A stretch of 64,000 bases of DNA from an uncultured Cohaesibacter sp. (GTDB taxonomy: Bacteria; Pseudomonadota; Alphaproteobacteria; Rhizobiales; Cohaesibacteraceae), in assembly GCF_963676485.1 (NCBI RefSeq), contig NZ_OY781114.1:3364501-3428500 (forward strand), in the 5' to 3' direction. Made by a program: the position numbers and the translations under genes. Each line of letters starts with the position of its first letter. Within the stretch, counting starts at the first letter, position 1. The notes under the pieces were generated by a model, which worked only from the letters and a program-made list of their open reading frames with translations, was not told the DNA's origin and made no database searches. This document shows, piece after piece, positions 38,640 through 61,162 of the stretch.

Positions 38640-40352
38640 TCAGGCCGCCTGAATGTCCTTGAGGAAGCTCTCGATACGCTCACGCAGCTGTCGCGCTTGT
38701 TCGGCGGCATTGCGTGAGGCTTCAAGAACATTCTCGGCTGACTGATGGGTATCGGCAACCGAACTGCTGACCGAAGCCATGCGCTCGCTTGCCTCAAGGG
38801 TGCCCTGAGAAGCCTGCTGCACATTGGAGCTGATTTCCTCGGTTGCTGCTCCTTGTTGTTCCACTGCGGCGGCGATGGAGTTTGTGTATTCATTCACCTC
38901 TGCCATGGTTTCCGAGATCTTGGAAATGGCTGCGACCGCTTCCTGAGACGAGCTCTGGATGCCGGAAATCTGGCTGGAGATCTCTTCTGTGGCTTTGGAC
39001 GTCTGGTTGGCCAGCTCCTTGACCTCTGCTGCAACAACAGCAAAGCCCTTACCTGCTTCTCCTGCGCGTGCTGCTTCGATGGTGGCGTTCAATGCCAACA
39101 GATTGGTCTGTTCGGCAACGGCTTGAATGAGGGTCACGACCTCGCCAATCTTCTGGGCGGCCATGTCGAGGCTCTCAACCTTCTCGTTGGTGGCTATCGA
39201 CTCGTTGGAGGCGAGGGATACAACGGACCTTGTTTTGCTCAATTGCTGTGAGATTTCGCCGATAGAAGCGGAGAGTTCCTCCGATGCTGATGCGACGGTT
39301 TGTGCATTGCTTGCAGCCTCGTTTGAAACAGAAGAAGCGCTGTTGGACTGCTCTGCGGTAGCTTCGGCGATTTCTGTCAGACGCTGAGCTGTCCCTTCCA
39401 TGGTTCTGGAGTTCTCTGAAACGGATTCCAGAATGGCCTGAATGTCATGGTCAAACGCCACCACGGTTTGCAGCATTTTCTGCTCATGCCGCTCCCGTTC
39501 CTTGTCGGTTTCCGCTTTATGATTCTCAAGCTCGAGGCGATGCACATTCTTGTCATTCAGCACAGCGACAGCTGCGGCCATATCTCCGATTTCGTCCTTG
39601 CGGGACTGATAGGGAATTTCCGAGATTTTCTCGTCATGCGAGATTGCTGCCAACAGGTTTGTCATGACGGGCAGAGGCTTCATCATGCGGCGGCTTGCGA
39701 AGAAGGCAAAGGCCACAATCAGGGCGCCGACGATGAGTGCCGAAATGAGAAGGCCCTGCAAAACGTCGCTCAAAATGGATTGAACGCGCTCTTTCTGGAT
39801 GCCGACATAGAGAATGCCGTTGACCCTGTTTGAGGGAGAAAAGATTGGTTGATAGAGCGTGTAATATGGAACGCCGAGAATAACGGCTTCGCCCATGAAG
39901 GTCTTGCCTTGCGTGACGACAGGATAAACAGCGCCATTCTTGCCCAAGGGAGTACCGATGGCTCTCTTGCCGTCGGGTTTCTTGATGTTTGTGGTCTTGC
40001 GCCAGAAGTCCTTGCTTTGTGCGTCCCATGCGAACAGGGTGGCTGTTTCGCCCGTGATGGAGCCGATGCGGTCAATCATGTCATGATTGGAGAATGCGGG
40101 GATGTCTTTCATGACAAGGCGACGAATCCCGCCTGACGCGTCTCTCGTGACGCTCACATCGGGAAGGCTGGTTTCGAATATTTGTGAAGCGACACGGATG
40201 CTGACTGATTGTTGCTGCAACACATCTGATTTGATTTTGTTGCTGATCGTCGACCAGGTCGCTGCTGCAAGCGCAATCATGCAGATCAGCACAGAGCCTA
40301 TGGTTAGAACTGTTACTTTTTGGGTTAGCTTCAGTTTCGAAAGAAGGTTCAT
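38640..40352 (-). CDS. Methyl-accepting chemotaxis protein with periplasmic Cache-like sensor
   Basis: 570 residues. TM1 about 13-35, a periplasmic domain of about 160 residues (Cache-type, includes TLFAWDAQ and [22 protein letters not shown]), TM2 about 196-217, HAMP about 218-275, and an MCP signalling domain with the hairpin tip [19 protein letters not shown] near 400-420. Methylatable Glu/Gln stretches flank the tip. No CheR/CheB-tethering pentapeptide at the end (ends IQAA). Ligand unknown. It stands alone, with no che genes next to it; the only other chemotaxis gene in the window is the CheZ-like gene at 53.8 kb. Confidence 0.94.
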
Positions 40353-53846: not shown

Positions 53847-55250
53847 ATGAGCAGCAAACCAATGCCACCTACACCACTGCGACAAGAGGACTATCTGGCG
53901 ATCGAAGCCGCCGTGATGGAAACTGCGAGAGGTCGCTGGTTTCTGGCGGAATATGCCCGTAGAAATCGTAATGCAGATACTGATACCTTATTGACCGCGA
54001 TCGATAAACTGGAAAAAACGGTCGTACGGGAAAGAGCACCATCGTCTCTGATGCATCAGGTCCGCATGGATCTGACGGATATGGCCAACGCCATTGAACG
54101 CACCAAAACAGAAATTGCTCAAATCAAGCATGAAGATAATCAGGGCTCCGAGCGCTTCGAACGCGCGACTGTTGAGCTTGATGCCATTGTTTCTCAAACA
54201 GAAAGTGCGACCGGAGATATTCTGGGCGCAGCCGAGAAAATTCAGGAATTCGCTTGGACGCTGCGTGAAATGGGCGCTGATAGCGACAAGTGCGATGAAC
54301 TGGATATGGAAGCAACCAACATCTATATGGCTTGCTCCTTCCAGGATCTGACCGGCCAGCGGATCAGAAAAATTGTGGATGCCATGCGCTATGTCGAAAG
54401 CCGCATCAATTCCATGATCGATATCTGGGGATTCGAATCCGAAGGCATCGAAGTGGATCAGCATGATCACCGACGTCATGATCAGCGGCCCGACGCCCAT
54501 CTTCTCAATGGGCCGGCTCTTGAAGGGGAAGGCGTTGGACAAGATGATGTCGACAATCTCTTCAGCGCTCCTGATCTTTATGAAGAAGCTGATCAGAATG
54601 ATGTTGATGCCCTGTTCGATAGCAACGACAAGTCAGATCAGGACGATGTAGACGCTCTGTTCGATACGGCAAGTTCTGATGATGAGCCCTCTGAAGAAGA
54701 ATGCGATCTGTCTGCAGAGATGAGCCAGGATGATGCGGATGCTTTGTTTGCGACAGCCTCTGAGGTTGAAGCCGATGATGAAGCTGAAGCTGAAATGGTA
54801 GAGGCTGCTGCCAGCTCTGAGGAAATGTCCTCTGACGATATGACCGAAGTGGCTGCTGAAGTCAGCGCAGAGGACACCGCTGATGTCGATATTGTCGATG
54901 CAGACTTCATGGACATGCAGGATCTGGACTGGGCTGCAGAAGCGGAAGCTGACACAGATGCTGCCGACTATCTGGAAACGGTAGAGCCGGAAGCAGTTTC
55001 TGAGGCCGATGATCAGGAAGCCGACATCTTTGCCTCTGCAGATCCTGAAATGCTGTCTGAGCAGGAGAGCTTAGATGCGGCTGCTCAGCAGGATGAGGGC
55101 GAGGCAATGCCTCCAGCAGAAGATGGCGAGCCGGACATTTTTGCTTCTGCTGATATTTTTGATAAGGCTCTGAATGAAGAGTTGGCCTCTTCCGATGAGG
55201 AAGAAGAAGAGCTTCTGGATCTGCGTGATCGCGTGGCTCAGTTCAGCTAA
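53847..55250 (+). CDS. cheZ: CheZ-like phosphatase with long acidic repeat tail
   Basis: 467 residues, about twice E. coli CheZ (214). CheZ strips phosphate from CheY-P. Residues about 10-195 are helical and hold the catalytic motif QDLTGQ at 166-171 (Asp 167, Gln 171 by analogy with CheZ). The remainder is acidic and probably disordered. It holds four copies of a Q-D/N-D-V-D-x-L-F motif at 231-239, 249-257, 264-272 and 293-301. This resembles the CheY-P-binding peptides at the C-terminus of E. coli CheZ and the N-terminus of FliM. The phrase DIFASAD occurs twice later. ATG start; followed by a strong terminator. No che operon is near. Confidence 0.82.
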   Translation: MSSKPMPPTPLRQEDYLAIEAAVMETARGRWFLAEYARRNRNADTDTLLTAIDKLEKTVVRERAPSSLMHQVRMDLTDMANAIERTKTEIAQIKHEDNQGSERFERATVELDAIVSQTESATGDILGAAEKIQEFAWTLREMGADSDKCDELDMEATNIYMACSFQDLTGQRIRKIVDAMRYVESRINSMIDIWGFESEGIEVDQHDHRRHDQRPDAHLLNGPALEGEGVGQDDVDNLFSAPDLYEEADQNDVDALFDSNDKSDQDDVDALFDTASSDDEPSEEECDLSAEMSQDDADALFATASEVEADDEAEAEMVEAAASSEEMSSDDMTEVAAEVSAEDTADVDIVDADFMDMQDLDWAAEAEADTDAADYLETVEPEAVSEADDQEADIFASADPEMLSEQESLDAAAQQDEGEAMPPAEDGEPDIFASADIFDKALNEELASSDEEEEELLDLRDRVAQFS

Positions 55251-55417: not shown

Positions 55418-58400
55418 TTATCCCAATCTACCGCTGGCATGGGCAAGCATGGTGTAGATCTTGCCGGTATCCGAGGTGAGATAGTTCATTGTCGAGCTTC
55501 CGTCGCGGTCTTTTCTGGAAATATCGTCCAGAATGCGTTCGAAATCACCGACATAGCGGTTCACCGTGTTGCGGAAGTCCGTGTCACGTTGGTAGCGCAT
55601 ACGTACGTCTTCAAAGGTCTGTTGGCCTTTCAGGGTGTAGAGCCGCCGTGTGAAGCTTCCACCTTCGCCGCGGCGATAGCTTTCCCAAGCATCCGATTGG
55701 TTGTCAGCGTCAATGCCGCGGATGATGTCCTTGGAAATCGGTGCCAGCGCTTCGGCATCGCCCGGCTGAGGAATGTTGTCCTCTGGCTGGGAGGCCCGGC
55801 GCAGCAGGTCTGAGACCCAACCGCCGGAGCGGCCTTCAGGCTCTTCTCTTGCGCTTTGCGGGGCATAGTTGCTCGCTACAGGTTGCTGTGGCTGCTGCTT
55901 CTGAGGTTGTGGCTCAGGCTGGCGGGCCGGCTGTTGAGCTGGTGGAAGCGAACGCTGCTGGTTGCTGGTGGCAGGAGCATTGTTGCGCTTCTGGCTCGAA
56001 CGATCCGATGCAGGCACTGTGTCGAACATGTTGCCATGGCGTTGCACCACGCGGGACAGCTCTTTAAGGGCATCGATCTGCTCGGAGACGACACGGCGCA
56101 TGGCACCTGTTGCCTCGCGGGTTTCTGTTGGCAGTTCGTTGAGACCCTGCTTGAGCTCGGACCGGGTGACATCAAGATCACGCTTGATTTCCTGCGTGAT
56201 GGTACGGATGTCTTGCGTTGCCTGCTCGAAGCGTGCATTGGCATCAGACATGGACTGGGCCATTTCTTCGCTCATTTCACGCTGCACGGCACGAATGGAT
56301 TCCGCAGCACGGCGCCCTTCGGAAGCCGCGTTGATGCGCAGCTGTTCGAGCTGGTCCATGACTTCCTTGGACACGCCTTCCGTGCTCTGGCTGAGCAGCA
56401 TACCCACATCCCGTGCGCGGCCTTCAGCTGTGCTCAGGGTGCTGGCTATGATCGAGGTGAAGTTGTTCAGCACATTCTCGATGGCTTCTGTCCGCTTGGA
56501 GAGGTCATCGGTCATGTTGACAAGCATCGCGCGCCGTTCCTCAACCGAGCCTTCGAGGCGATCATTGGTGGATTCCATGATGCGCGTCGTGTTGACCAGA
56601 GCTGAGGCTTGCTCTTCGAACTTGTCGGTGAGCGAAGCGACCTGACCAAGGATGCTGTTGGAGACATCGCGCAGATCATGCACATGGCCTGTGAGCTGGT
56701 TGGTCGAGTTGCCTGCTTCGTTGACCACGGTTTCCACGACAGTCCGGAACTGGTTGGTCTGGTCGGACAGGCTGGTCTCGATGGTAGACAGGCTGTGACC
56801 GGCATTGAGAAGCAACTCGGAGAGCGTGTCGTTGGCATGCTTGAGCCGCTCGACGATTTCTGTGCCATCGGCCCGCAGCAATTCGTTGGTGCTGCTCATG
56901 GACTGGCTGGCTTCGTCTGAGGCTATGCGCATTGCTTCGACCAGACGTTTGTTGGAAGTGTCCAGTTTGACAATCGCATCGTGGCTGCTCTGGGCGATGG
57001 CCTTGACGAGATTGCTCGAAGAGGCTTCCAGCGCACTTCTTGCCTGATCGGAGCTGATGCTAAGCGCCTCGACCGTGCGTTTGGAGCTTTCGTCCATGGC
57101 AGAGAGCGTTTCGTTGGACTTCTCGCCAATGGTCTCAACAGCCTGACGGGAGCTTTCATTGAGTGCAGATACAGCCCGCCGCGAGCCTTCGTCCAGAGCG
57201 GCGAGGGTGCCGTTCGAGCTATGGCTGATGGCTTCGACTGCGCGTCTGGAGCCTTCTTCAAGGGCTTCCAGAGTGCCGCTCGAGCTTTCCGTGATTGCGG
57301 TAACCGTGCGTCTTGACGTATCTTCAAAGGCCGCAAGGGTTTCGCTGGAATTCTCGGTAAGGGCCGATACGGCGCGTCTTGACGTGTCTTCAAAGGCCGC
57401 AAGGGTTTCGCTGGAATTCTCGGTAAGAGCCGATACGGCGCGTCTTGATGTATCCTCGAAGGCTGCAAGCGTTGTGCTTGAGCTTTCATCGAGCGCTTTG
57501 GCGGCCATTTCTGCGCTGGAGGAGAGAGCCATCTGTGTGCGTGATGTGCTTTCTTCGAGCGTTTGCACGGCCAACTGGGCGCTTTCAGACATGGTGTGCG
57601 CAGCGCGATCTGTGCTGCTGGTCAGAGACCCAACAGAGCGATCGGTGTTCTCGGTGATCGCCTGAACGGCACGGCTCGTGCTTTCGGTAAGGGTTTCCGT
57701 TGCGCGTGAGCTGTTGTCGTTGATAGCGCTGACCAGATGTTCGCCGGTTTCCGCCAGCGTCTGGGATGCCCGAGCACTTTCCTGTGCAACGGCGCGAGCG
57801 ATTTCCCCACCGCGGCTGGAGAGGCTGTGAATGATGCTTTCGCCAGCTTTCTGGAAGGTTTCTGTGATGCTCTGGCTTCTGCTGTCCAAAGCCTGCACAA
57901 CAGAGTTGCCTTTCTCATCCAGAATGGAGGAGAGCTCAGCCGATCGCGATCCGAGGACTGCGTTGAAGTTCTCGGTCTTCTCGGTGATTTCGGCGCTTGC
58001 CGTTGTCAATGTGGAAGCAAGGGCATCGCGGGCCTTGGCGCTTTCAGTTGCGAAGTTGGTCGAGATCGCATTCAGGCGATCATTGAGAATGGCCTCGATC
58101 TGGGCGGAACGGCTGTCGAGCGTTTCGGCAACCTCAAAGACCTTGCTGCCGAGCGAGACATTGATTTCTGCAACGCGATCGGACAGGGTTTCCGTAAGTT
58201 CGTGGGCCTGACGCGACAGGGTTTCGCCAACCAGAGTAAGGCGCTTGTCCATGCTCTCGTTGATGTCATTCTGCCCTTGCGAGTAGGCCTGTGCGATATC
58301 ACGGGTGCGGTCAAGCAGCGTCTCGTTGATATTGCGCGCCCGGGTATCGAGGGTTTCGTCCAGCTTGCTGGTGCGTTCTTCCAGAGCCGAATTGAGCGTA

Positions 58401-61162
58401 TCGGCCTTGGTTGCGAAGTTCATCGTCAGGCTCGAGACATTGTCTTCGAAGCCACTCAGGCGTGTCGCAATTTCCTGCTCGAAGGTTTCTGTGCGGCTGG
58501 TAAGTGCGTTGGCCACTTCCTCTGCCCGCGCCGAAACGCTGACCGAGAAGCCTTCAAGGCGGCTATCGAGCATGCTTTCGATCTCACCGGCCCGTGCAAA
58601 CAGGGTCTGATCAAGCGAGTTGATGCGCTGATCCATGGACTGGCTGAGATTGTCGAGGCGATCACCAAGATGGCTGACCAGATTGGTGCCACCAACGGAA
58701 ATGACGTCGTCAAATGCCTTGACGCGCTCTTCCATGGCAATGCGGATTTCTTCGCTCTGGCCTTGCAGGGCATTGGTGAGCTCGCCGCCTGCATTCTCGA
58801 ACAGTTCCTTGACCTTGTTGCCGCGCTGGGCAATGACCTTGGCGATCTCGGTACCGACCATGGCAAGACGCTCGGTGACTTCCATGGAGCGGGAATTGAG
58901 TGCGTCGGTTGCTTTGCCCGTGGCCTCTTCGAGATTTTCGGACATGGCCTTGGACTGGGTCTCAAGCACAGTGCTCATGCTGCTTGTGCGTTCGTCCAGC
59001 ATGGAGCCCAGATGGGAAGCATGCGCTTCGAGCTGTTCGTTGAGCTCGCCGCCCTTGACGGTAACCGTCTGATGGATGCGTTCGGCGGTGGTATCGAGCT
59101 TGATGGTGAACTGCTCGCCCTGCGTCGACAAGGTTTCGGAAATATGCGTTCCGGTCTGTGTCATGCGCTGGGTCAGGGTGTCGCCCGTGCTGGAAATGGT
59201 ATGAGCGATATTGGTGCCCGTCTCGTCCAGCTTCTCGTTGATTTCCGTGCCGCGCAGGGACAGATCCACCAGAAGGGCATCGCCGGTGCCTTTGAGGGCC
59301 TGGGAAACTTCGGAGGAGCGTTCGGTGATGGCGGAAACGATCTCGGTGCCTTGGGTGCGGATATTCTCTGCGACCGTTGACCCCGTCTCGGACATCGAGA
59401 GGGTCATCGTGGAGCTGATTTCCGTCAGGCTGCTTGTAACGGTTGTCCCGATTTCGCGCAGTTCCGAAGTGATTGAACCGCCAGTATCGGAAAGGTTCGT
59501 TGTGACTTCGGAGCCGAAGCTTCTGAGATTGTCCGTCAGCGACTGACCGGTGGTTGCGATATTTTCGGTAACCTCGGTGCCAATTGTCTTCAGCTCGCTG
59601 CTGAGAGAGTTGCCGGTGTTGGCTAGATTTTCCGTGACTTCCGAACCGATGGTGCGCAGCTCTGTGCTGAGGGCGCCGCCTGTGGAGGAGAGGTTGGCCG
59701 TGACTTCCGCGCCGATGGTTCTGAATTCGCCGGTGAGGCTGTTGCCCGTCTCGGCCAGATTGGTCGTAACCTCGGTGCCGATGGACTTCAATTCGCCCGT
59801 AAGGGAGTTGCCGGTGTAAGCAAGATTCTCGGTGACTTCTGCGCCGATGGATTTCAACTCGCTGGTGAGCGCGTTGCCGGTGGTCGACAGGTTGGCCGTG
59901 ACGTCATTGCCGATGGACTGAAGATTGGAGTTAAGCCCGGCGCCGACTTCGGAGATATTCTGGGTTACCGTCTCGCCCGTCTGGGAGAGGGTGGAGGTCA
60001 GTTCTTGCCCTGCGCCGATGAAGCGGTCGGTTACTTCATGGCCGATGCTAGCCAACTGGCTGGTCAGGTCACTACCGGTAATTTCCAGTTTTTGGGAAAT
60101 GTCGGTGCCTGACATGCTGAGCTGATTGGTAATGGACTGTCCGGCGTCGGTCAGGGACTCGGTCACATTCGCACCGGTGGTGGAGAGGCGATCCACCAGA
60201 TCGGAGCCGCGGTTGGAGAGCACATTGACCATGGTTTCGCCGGCGTTGGCCAGCGCAATGGTGATTTGCTCGCCCTTTTCGGCCAGAGACAGCGTAACGC
60301 GGGACCCCGCATCGGAAACGCTTTTGGAGATCGACTCGCTGGTGGTGTTCAGCTCGTCGGAGAGGCTGGTATGCGCTCCGGAAATGGAGGCGCGGACACG
60401 TTCGGAGTTGGTAACGATGGCTTCGCGCTGTGTGATCAGTTCGTCAATCAGCGAGCGAATGCGCAATTCGTTTTCAGTGTAGGCGCGTTCCAGGGAGGAA
60501 ACCTCGTTATGCACCATCACTTCCAACTCGGAGGCGCGGGCCAGAGCCCGTTCGATACCATCGCTCATGGAGGCCACTTCGCGGCGAATGGCCTGCCCAA
60601 CATTGACGACGGATTCCTTGGCAACATTTTCCGGTTCCACCAGACGCATCGCGACTTGTGTCATGGCGTTGGAAACCTGACGCATCTCATGAGCCCGGAC
60701 CACAATGTAGGCCATCATGAAGAACAGGATAACAGGCAGGAAGATACCGGCCATGGCTGCGAGGGCCGGTGGCGAATCCGTCAGGGATGCAAAGCCGTCC
60801 TGAGCGATCTGATCGCCGCCAAAGCCCATGAAAAACAGGCCTCCGCCGATCGCAACCCAGAAGAGCGACAGGATCGAAGCAAACATGTAAGGTGCCGAAC
60901 TCGGCGGCTGCTGCAGGGAATGCAACAAATGCCCGACCGATTGCTGATCGTCATTGGCAGGCCTTGGCTTGATCTTGTTGCCGCGCCCTTCGCCTTTGGC
61001 CGAAGCCTTTTCGCCAGTGGTGTCCTTGGCGTTGTCAGCGTCATCTTTCGGCTTGGATTCATTGGTCTCTTCGGAGACGTCGAAATCCATTTTCAAAGCA
61101 TCTTCAACCGCTGACAGAGCCGCTTCTGTCGGATCCTGAATCTTTGGAGACTTCGTTACCAT
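55418..61162 (-). CDS. Giant coiled-coil membrane protein, growth pole ring (GPR) homologue
   Basis: 1914 residues. An acidic N-terminus, two membrane helices (about 92-113 and 134-155), then some 1,500 residues of apolipoprotein-like helical repeats (LTGELKSIGTEVTENLA-type every 22 or so residues), a Gln/Pro-rich linker (about 1730-1780), and a conserved C-terminal domain (QTFEDVRMRYQRDTDFRNTV; SRKDRDGSS). This layout is that of the GPR protein of Agrobacterium, of about 2,100 residues, which forms a ring at the growth pole and is needed for polar growth and rod shape. Assignment is by layout and repeat type. ATG start. Convergent with the CheZ-like gene. Repeats with 66-bp period are seen at 57310-57441. 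Confidence 0.82.
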   Translation of the reverse strand: MVTKSPKIQDPTEAALSAVEDALKMDFDVSEETNESKPKDDADNAKDTTGEKASAKGEGRGNKIKPRPANDDQQSVGHLLHSLQQPPSSAPYMFASILSLFWVAIGGGLFFMGFGGDQIAQDGFASLTDSPPALAAMAGIFLPVILFFMMAYIVVRAHEMRQVSNAMTQVAMRLVEPENVAKESVVNVGQAIRREVASMSDGIERALARASELEVMVHNEVSSLERAYTENELRIRSLIDELITQREAIVTNSERVRASISGAHTSLSDELNTTSESISKSVSDAGSRVTLSLAEKGEQITIALANAGETMVNVLSNRGSDLVDRLSTTGANVTESLTDAGQSITNQLSMSGTDISQKLEITGSDLTSQLASIGHEVTDRFIGAGQELTSTLSQTGETVTQNISEVGAGLNSNLQSIGNDVTANLSTTGNALTSELKSIGAEVTENLAYTGNSLTGELKSIGTEVTTNLAETGNSLTGEFRTIGAEVTANLSSTGGALSTELRTIGSEVTENLANTGNSLSSELKTIGTEVTENIATTGQSLTDNLRSFGSEVTTNLSDTGGSITSELREIGTTVTSSLTEISSTMTLSMSETGSTVAENIRTQGTEIVSAITERSSEVSQALKGTGDALLVDLSLRGTEINEKLDETGTNIAHTISSTGDTLTQRMTQTGTHISETLSTQGEQFTIKLDTTAERIHQTVTVKGGELNEQLEAHASHLGSMLDERTSSMSTVLETQSKAMSENLEEATGKATDALNSRSMEVTERLAMVGTEIAKVIAQRGNKVKELFENAGGELTNALQGQSEEIRIAMEERVKAFDDVISVGGTNLVSHLGDRLDNLSQSMDQRINSLDQTLFARAGEIESMLDSRLEGFSVSVSARAEEVANALTSRTETFEQEIATRLSGFEDNVSSLTMNFATKADTLNSALEERTSKLDETLDTRARNINETLLDRTRDIAQAYSQGQNDINESMDKRLTLVGETLSRQAHELTETLSDRVAEINVSLGSKVFEVAETLDSRSAQIEAILNDRLNAISTNFATESAKARDALASTLTTASAEITEKTENFNAVLGSRSAELSSILDEKGNSVVQALDSRSQSITETFQKAGESIIHSLSSRGGEIARAVAQESARASQTLAETGEHLVSAINDNSSRATETLTESTSRAVQAITENTDRSVGSLTSSTDRAAHTMSESAQLAVQTLEESTSRTQMALSSSAEMAAKALDESSSTTLAAFEDTSRRAVSALTENSSETLAAFEDTSRRAVSALTENSSETLAAFEDTSRRTVTAITESSSGTLEALEEGSRRAVEAISHSSNGTLAALDEGSRRAVSALNESSRQAVETIGEKSNETLSAMDESSKRTVEALSISSDQARSALEASSSNLVKAIAQSSHDAIVKLDTSNKRLVEAMRIASDEASQSMSSTNELLRADGTEIVERLKHANDTLSELLLNAGHSLSTIETSLSDQTNQFRTVVETVVNEAGNSTNQLTGHVHDLRDVSNSILGQVASLTDKFEEQASALVNTTRIMESTNDRLEGSVEERRAMLVNMTDDLSKRTEAIENVLNNFTSIIASTLSTAEGRARDVGMLLSQSTEGVSKEVMDQLEQLRINAASEGRRAAESIRAVQREMSEEMAQSMSDANARFEQATQDIRTITQEIKRDLDVTRSELKQGLNELPTETREATGAMRRVVSEQIDALKELSRVVQRHGNMFDTVPASDRSSQKRNNAPATSNQQRSLPPAQQPARQPEPQPQKQQPQQPVASNYAPQSAREEPEGRSGGWVSDLLRRASQPEDNIPQPGDAEALAPISKDIIRGIDADNQSDAWESYRRGEGGSFTRRLYTLKGQQTFEDVRMRYQRDTDFRNTVNRYVGDFERILDDISRKDRDGSSTMNYLTSDTGKIYTMLAHASGRLG
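57310..57441 (-). repeat. Tandem 66-bp repeat inside the GPR-like gene
   Basis: Two nearly identical 66-bp units (57310-57375 and 57376-57441), a diverged third from 57442. Each encodes 22 residues with the core SSETLAAFEDTSRRAVSAL. A 22-residue period is that of apolipoprotein-like helices. Near-identity at DNA level means recent duplication or gene conversion within the repeat array. Confidence 0.9.

Follow-up and report, generated by a model that had tools for sequence, protein, structure and literature searches.

Repeated CheY-docking-type peptides in a CheZ paralogue of Cohaesibacter, and the same peptide in PopZ and a zinc-ribbon protein

The genome of an uncultured Cohaesibacter sp. 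consists of two contigs and 5.08 Mb. In this study, we analysed a stretch of 64,000 nucleotides of this genome (the window), which carries a gene for a CheZ paralogue, here called CheZ3. The genome has two more CheZs, CheZ-a and CheZ-b. The first-pass annotation had placed the gene away from any che operon and close to a polar growth gene. CheZ3 lies at 3418 kb with no che genes seen adjoining it; a cheY-cheZ pair is at about 510 kb, and fliM is about 37 kb away. The neighbouring gene encodes a protein that resembles, by its size and domains, the growth pole ring (GPR) protein of Agrobacterium as it appears in the excerpt of PMC8262873. Among the loci of CheZ3 relatives, of which some overlap, a relative of the MFS gene stands beside CheZ3 in 28 of 34, MlaE is near it in 14 of 34 and a GPR-like sequence in 8 of 34, many of the flanks being short; the MFS gene is also found at four of the eight orthologue loci that lack the catalytic motif. 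Elsewhere in the window, positions 38640-40352 encode a Cache-domain methyl-accepting chemotaxis protein. The features of the locus are collected in Table 1, together with the PopZ proteins discussed below.

Table 1. Features of CheZ3 and its neighbour in the window, and PopZ loci with the linker peptide
Feature	Position or locus	Strand	Remarks
CheZ paralogue (CheZ3)	53847..55250	+	467 aa, ATG start, stop included
N-terminal segment of CheZ3	53880..54014	+	residues 12-56, including METARGRWFLAEYARRNRNADT
Catalytic QDLTGQ of CheZ3	54342..54359	+	residues 166-171
Long acidic tail of CheZ3	54363..55247	+	residues 173-467
LLNGP linker of CheZ3	54501..54515	+	residues 219-223; alignment with E. coli CheZ
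Motif copy 1, QDDVDNLF	54540..54563	+	residues 232-239
Motif copy 2, QNDVDALF	54594..54617	+	residues 250-257
Motif copy 3, QDDVDALF	54639..54662	+	residues 265-272
Motif copy 4, QDDADALF	54726..54749	+	residues 294-301
C-terminal peptide LRDRVAQFS of CheZ3	55221..55247	+	
Neighbour of CheZ3	55418-61162	-	1914 aa, apolipoprotein domains
PopZ with linker peptide of CheZ/FliM docking type, non-genus-listed	L180, L182, L183, L188, L201, L203, L207		
PopZ with linker peptide, genus	L190-L197, L199, L200, L205, L208, L239-L243		

CheZ3 carries the catalytic signature of its family. Residues 162-171 read ACSFQDLTGQ, in which ACSFQ precedes and overlaps QDLTGQ, whose D167 and Q171 form the DXXXQ pair of CheZ, in agreement with the AXXFQ/DXXXQ motif described for CheZ in the excerpt of PMC7750401. 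The Pfam CheZ model matches residues 147-240, copy 1 of the repeated motif included, with an E-value of 7.6e-11 and 42.7 bits, above the cut-off of 30.7. The score against the NCBIfam CheZ equivalog, 37.5, is below the cut-off of 257, as are those of the two other CheZs of the genome (40.1 and 47.5). The N-terminal segment is traceable in relatives across the Hyphomicrobiales even where the catalytic motif is absent. After QDLTGQ the protein continues for 296 residues rich in aspartate (18.2%) and glutamate (15.2%), and it finishes in LRDRVAQFS, an end that shows only small changes within the genus. Many relatives finish in a similar ...ALFS, and this type of C-terminal end is perhaps a second interaction motif. 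In CheZ proteins, long hairpins pair into a dimeric four-helix bundle. An AlphaFold2 model of CheZ3 built from three sequences is of low confidence (mean pLDDT 51.8). It places helices at residues 66-141 and 146-193 and, in the tail, short helices at 232-240, 250-273 and 294-305, the remainder up to residue 430 being mostly unstructured.

The first-pass annotation had described, at 54537-54749 (residues 231-301), four copies of Q-[DN]-D-[VA]-D-x-L-F in an acidic tail that follows the catalytic QDLTGQ of a CheZ-like protein. The translation bears this out, coordinates included. Copies 1-3 also fit Q-x-x-[IVL]-D-x-L-[LF], and copy 4 has alanine at the hydrophobic place, which in CheZ is taken by V or I. 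A chance origin of the repeats was rejected by shuffling the residues of the tail: among 200,000 shuffles, one strict octet arose in 2 and two strict octets in 0, and with the looser pattern 8070 shuffles contained one copy, 134 two, 2 three and 0 the four copies of the real tail. When all six frames of the window were scanned with the looser motif (frames of at least 80 aa), it was found in the CheZ3 gene alone.

It is well established that the C-terminal helix of E. coli CheZ binds CheY-P and that the N-terminal peptide of FliM binds CheY. A phmmer search of the PDB with CheZ3 (E up to 10) returned a single chain, E. coli CheZ (1kmi), at a marginal E-value of 0.0067. The aligned stretch begins in the catalytic region and includes LLNGP, which is common to both proteins and in E. 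coli CheZ lies directly before the C-terminal helix; beyond it, QDDVDNLF of copy 1 is paired with QDQVDDLL, close to the C-terminal end of the E. coli protein. The N-terminal segment of CheZ3 is without an aligned counterpart. Moreover, copy 1 starts at the 61st residue after QDLTGQ, with the same spacing in CheZ-a and CheZ-b. Because of the 1kmi alignment and the coverage of the Pfam match, we regard copy 1 as the canonical docking peptide of CheZ, located where it is expected in the family. Judged by this alignment, copy 1 is homologous to the E. coli docking helix, beyond mere similarity, and the likeness to the CheZ C-terminal peptide proposed at first pass is borne out for this copy. The two proteins are thus alike in the DXXXQ core, the linker and the docking helix, whereas E. 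coli CheZ has one such helix at its very C-terminus and CheZ3 has it internal and repeated, with four copies and 166 more residues after the last. The CheZ of Azorhizobium caulinodans is likewise alphaproteobacterial, with AXXFQ next to DXXXQ, and is polar independently of CheA; in the excerpt of PMC7750401 it has a C-terminal helix at residues 225-236 without described repeats, unlike the four copies of CheZ3.

The peptide recurs in other chemotaxis proteins of the genome. CheZ-a, which lies near a CheY on the same strand in the cheY-cheZ pair, contains QDEVDAML plus a terminal SQDDIDALFG, and CheZ-b ends in SQDDIDALFD. The N-terminal region of FliM, encoded at 3457 kb, contains NQEEIDNLL, in line with the Q-x-x-I-D-x-L-L pattern by which the CheY-binding peptide of FliM resembles the CheZ3 octets, but there the peptide is single and sits on the motor switch, whereas CheZ3 has four in its tail. 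The docking idea gains support from the peptide at the ends of CheZ-a and CheZ-b and in FliM. A second FliM at 1277 kb (L059) has no N-terminal peptide of the CheY-binding type, which suggests that another flagellar system exists whose switching may not depend on CheY. The CheY of the genome, encoded at 511 kb, is identical to E. coli CheY at 67 of 122 positions, and at 21 of 37 over alpha4-beta5-alpha5; judged by these identities, the genome encodes an E. coli-type CheY. A degenerate DNA pattern for the octet had 14 matches in the whole genome and its reversed control 0. These matches are distributed over CheZ3 (4), CheZ-a (1), CheZ-b (1), a zinc-ribbon protein (7) and a spurious-looking frame (1), the variant octet of PopZ being outside the pattern.

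The zinc-ribbon protein (444 residues, at 2585-2586 kb; L014:1282-2613; L060) contains eight tandem copies of an 18-residue SQDDIDALF unit, EQSQDDIDALFDSPSGGE. It begins with an MJ0042-type zinc ribbon (Zn_ribbon_4, 2.6e-14; TIGR02098, 4.3e-15), and the array is followed by a hydrophobic stretch that reads, by eye, like one membrane segment. An N-terminal zinc ribbon followed by a membrane segment is also found in ZitP of Caulobacter, which is bipolar, binds PopZ and is required for pili and motility, but the excerpts of PMC5182063 and PMC5182065 give ZitP 245 residues and mention no repeats, in contrast to the eight copies here. A Pfam search (E up to 1) found no match to DUF3426, the C-terminal domain of ZitP, in the zinc-ribbon protein, and we therefore speak only of a ZitP-like architecture and leave orthology with ZitP unclaimed. 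Arrays of 2-9 copies are present in 18 of 18 genus genomes; the protein of G015 has two, with further units reading DGIDALF, and in G017 the gene is split over contig ends. Six copies are present in a relative from a different family (G052), against one weak copy (QDDVEALF) in the sister genus (G018). Within the arrays, pS is 0.643 and pN 0.018 for the octets, and 0.551 and 0.048 for the linkers. High pS with low pN indicates copies kept as protein, more than recent DNA duplicates. On this between-copy divergence and on the orthologue comparison, recent DNA duplication was rejected as the sole cause of the repeats. On the opposite strand, genes that look by eye like ftsE and ftsX neighbour the zinc-ribbon gene. 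Two genes downstream of it lies a CpdR-like single-domain receiver, whose best NCBIfam model is CpdR at 108.3 bits, below the cut-off of 180.

The polar organiser PopZ carries the peptide as well. The PopZ of the genome (L156) scores 93.2 bits against DUF2497 (cut-off 27) and contains MSQEALDALFDEP. In the pattern Qxx[IVLA]Dx[LM][FLM], the peptide is present in the PopZ of 18 of 18 genus genomes (13 in a first round and 5 in a second) and in 7 of 38 outside the genus (7/17 in the first round and 0/21 in the second), with three copies in G031; residue shuffles lead us to expect 0.04 PopZ proteins with a match in each of the two sets of the first round. The octet is QEALDALF, with A replacing D, in 8 of the 18 genus PopZs, and the PopZs of G054 and G038 have the strict form QDDIDALL. 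No DUF2497 match was found in 5 of 61 genomes. A class-wide sample was restricted to the 30 best among 117 genomes with a match, which left 29 loci besides our own. The script did not recognise the PopZ of 8 of these loci, which were dropped, and the peptide occurs in 0 of the 21 recognised. A protein of another class member (G569), which looks like PopZ by eye and was not recognised by the PopZ test, has two copies. Outside the genus, the PopZ motif is found in 7 of 24 FliM-positive and 0 of 12 FliM-negative genomes, a difference that is not significant (Fisher 0.07) in a count that left out G047 and G049, both with weak FliM matches and without the motif.

Across the order, a strict DNA pattern matched 116 of 249 genomes, with zero matches of the reversed control in every row. 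Among the matches listed, genomes outside the genus have at most 5 and the 8 genus genomes 5-14. Of 23 non-genus pattern loci taken from the matches listed, 15 are CheZ genes in which the octet is followed by one residue and the stop, and the remaining 8 are off-consensus octets in unrelated proteins. CheZ is not the sole carrier of the peptide, since the PopZs of G054 and G038 hold strict octets. Of the 42 non-genus genomes covered by both the pattern search and the Pfam FliM search, 27 have Pfam FliM, and 20 of these hold the strict pattern, compared with 1 of the 15 that lack it (Fisher 5e-5), an association that is partly circular because CheZ and FliM themselves hold the peptide. Such an association would follow from CheZ and FliM being the carriers, and it is compatible with a partner linked to chemotaxis. 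The sole FliM-negative match and one FliM-positive match (G036 and G047) are off-consensus octets in unrelated proteins. Taking the lack of Pfam FliM as lack of a flagellum was rejected on finding FlhA in 5 of the 15 FliM-negative genomes, and we therefore limit the association to Pfam FliM. In the class, a 110-residue query made from the array matched 9 of 385 genomes, our own included. By the general pattern, CheZs with four copies are encoded in G310, where the N-terminal segment is like that of CheZ3, and in G615. CheZs with one or two copies were matched in G442 and G623, the PopZ-like protein of G569 was matched too, and at the matched loci of G309 and G390 the inspected frames contain no octet. 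In this class sample, a CheZ with repeated motifs is thus a rarity, though not unique. The match in G288 (L146) is a frame that looks by eye like a TRAP transporter large subunit, with an acidic tail ending in three Q-x-x-[IVL]-D-x-L-F repeats.

A search with CheZ3 in 61 genomes gave matches in 49, other CheZs included. We could read an orthologue in 15 of the 18 genus genomes. G005 and G009, without one, are drafts of 64% and 90% completeness, and in G016 (L109 7486-8025) the gene seems interrupted, with the GPR-like match split across two frames. By the general pattern, the genus orthologues L028-L042 have 4, 4, 3, 4, 4, 3, 3, 3, 3, 6, 7, 2, 1, 2 and 2 copies, that is, at least two in 14 of 15 and a range of 1 to 7. 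The nearest 15 orthologues outside the genus (L043-L057) have one copy in 12 cases and none in 3, with tails of 143-500 residues. The repeats are kept within the genus, but extra copies occur in 0 of the 27 non-genus orthologues examined within the order; their multiplication is therefore a lineage-specific elaboration.

QD[LI]TGQ is intact in all 15 genus orthologues and in all 15 of the nearest ones outside the genus. Among 12 more distant ones (L093-L104), 8 lack it, and none of these 8 has the peptide; one copy is present in 2 of the 4 that retain it. Outside the genus, 14 of 19 orthologues with the catalytic motif have the peptide versus 0 of 8 without it (Fisher 5.8e-4, uncorrected for kinship, nearly all orthologues being from different families), and peptide and phosphatase thus go together. 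The N-terminal segment is visible by eye in 12 of the 12 distant orthologues, and a separate BLAST query with it matched 11 (not L093). In L093 and L095-L101, which come from other families of the Hyphomicrobiales, catalytic motif and docking peptide are both lost, whereas a GRWFL-type N-terminal segment is still recognisable.

With moderate confidence, we favour the reading that these octets are a portable CheY-docking peptide, which would have been multiplied to concentrate CheY(~P) at the phosphatase and the pole. CheZ3 would be the third CheZ-type phosphatase of the genome, in which copy 1 and DLTGQ would make an ordinary CheZ. An ancestral single docking helix, copy 1, would have been followed by three extra copies on the flexible acidic tail, and a CheZ3 dimer, if one forms, would offer eight docking helices beside two active sites. 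Each copy would most likely bind the alpha4-beta5-alpha5 face of CheY~P, presumably in a phosphorylation-dependent manner. The array would then act as a local concentrator, either through a higher effective CheY~P and rebinding at the phosphatase or by holding a pool of CheY~P, and the same peptide on the zinc-ribbon membrane-type protein (2-9 copies) and on PopZ would locate this pooling at the cell pole. For CheZ3, we infer the phosphatase activity, the polar location and the sink or concentrator effect from sequence. In the CheY phosphate sinks of rhizobia, a second CheY takes the phosphate. Both that system and the one proposed here would lower free CheY~P, but the rhizobial sinks use a second CheY, whereas CheZ3 multiplies binding sites. 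The first-pass interpretation is supported in part, by the homology of copy 1, the retention of repeats in the genus, the slower change of the octets and the joint loss of peptide and catalytic motif. With the peptide also found in PopZ and, in even higher number, in the zinc-ribbon protein, the weight shifts from catalytic turnover to where CheY, or a different receiver, is positioned.

The best-surviving alternative concerns the identity of that receiver. The extra CheZ3 copies and the peptides of the zinc-ribbon protein and PopZ would dock another receiver or polar client, be it CpdR-like, DivK-like or an unknown adaptor, with CheY bound only by the canonical CheZ copy and FliM; in that case, the arrays would recruit a cell-cycle regulator to the pole. 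We consider this unlikely, although it agrees with several of our findings and with work in Caulobacter, whose PopZ directly binds unphosphorylated CpdR according to the excerpt of PMC11519897. The zinc-ribbon gene is two genes upstream of the CpdR-like receiver, and the strict octets QDDIDALL in the PopZs of G054 and G038 make it clear that CheZ is not the sole carrier. Against these points stands the docking face. Eight other short receivers of the genome (of ten with frames up to 200 aa, those of 197 and 200 aa being outside the comparison) match that of the own CheY at 7-13 of 37 positions, and the two CpdR-like receivers, one recognised by NCBIfam and the other a protein that we take to be CpdR-like, at just 7 and 8. 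To our knowledge, Caulobacter PopZ lacks the peptide, and its binding of CpdR would thus not need it. Furthermore, the peptide accompanies the catalytic motif in CheZ3 orthologues. Homology, this joint loss and the docking face lead us to weigh CheY above a CpdR-like partner, while the literature examined holds no CheY link of PopZ or the zinc-ribbon protein, which leaves room for another partner.

More doubtful still is that only copy 1 works and that copies 2-4 are slippage or segmental duplicates, neutral or nearly so, in an acidic tail under low constraint. This would agree with copy numbers that vary from 1 to 7 among the 15 genus orthologues, and with the long tails of the nearest 15 non-genus orthologues, which have one copy (12) or none (3). 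Copies 3 and 4 are variably present within the genus, and therefore not every copy is needed. However, in five close genus orthologues pN/pS is 0.026 for the core, 0.060 for the octets, 0.129 for the inter-motif tail and 0.356 for the remaining tail, so that the octets are more constrained than the flanking tail at similar synonymous divergence, a descriptive contrast in which the octet estimate rests on 32 codons. The order is unchanged when four further species are added (0.073, 0.096, 0.224 and 0.425). Neutral duplication is also at odds with the multiplication of the motif in the CheZs of G310 and G615 and in the zinc-ribbon proteins of two families. Finally, it is very improbable that CheZ3 serves chiefly as a structural or scaffolding protein at the pole in unipolar growth, with a relic CheZ core and motifs serving a scaffold network: its gene does adjoin a growth-pole-ring-like gene, and 8 of 12 distant orthologues have lost the catalytic motif with the N-terminal segment still recognisable, but the GPR-like gene is near just 8 of 34 loci (many with short flanks), QD[LI]TGQ is intact in all genus and nearest non-genus orthologues (15/15 each), the core has the lowest pN/pS (0.026), and the lack of the peptide in all 8 catalytic-less orthologues is the opposite of the pattern predicted if the peptide had a scaffold role.

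Among top-ranked open papers on CheZ/CheY docking and multivalent CheY binding, we found no CheZ with repeated docking motifs, which is weak evidence of novelty. Similarly, the top-ranked open papers on PopZ with CheY or CheZ did not report the peptide in PopZ, and none described a chemotaxis-polarity link through a docking peptide; the excerpt on HubP of Vibrio (PMC8789113) is within the same negative result on repeats and the PopZ peptide. A text search for the letters of the peptide returned no paper. The first-pass statement that no CheZ with repeated motifs has been described therefore stands for this literature, but the sequence itself is not unique, as two other CheZs of the class have four copies.

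If the copies of CheZ3 bind CheY~P, its tail would be a naturally occurring, multivalent array of docking sites for CheY on a CheZ, and the natural variants with 1 to 7 copies would serve to test how the number of sites shapes dephosphorylation, sinks and switching. We propose more tentatively, as a possibility, that the docking motif of CheZ and FliM was installed in the alphaproteobacterial polar organisers PopZ and zinc-ribbon ZitP-like proteins and multiplied there and in CheZ3, so that the pole may act as a multivalent trap for CheY~P that is equipped with a phosphatase, physically linking chemotaxis to polarity. Through the peptide on PopZ and on the zinc-ribbon membrane-type protein, the pole would have a direct and testable way to gather or release the chemotaxis signal. 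In this sense, our results might bear on the loss of ZitP in Caulobacter, which harms motility and is relieved by a fliG mutation for a reason called unclear in the excerpt of PMC5182063, although the peptide is not known in Caulobacter ZitP. Should the partner be a different receiver, our results still define one peptide common to chemotaxis and polarity proteins.
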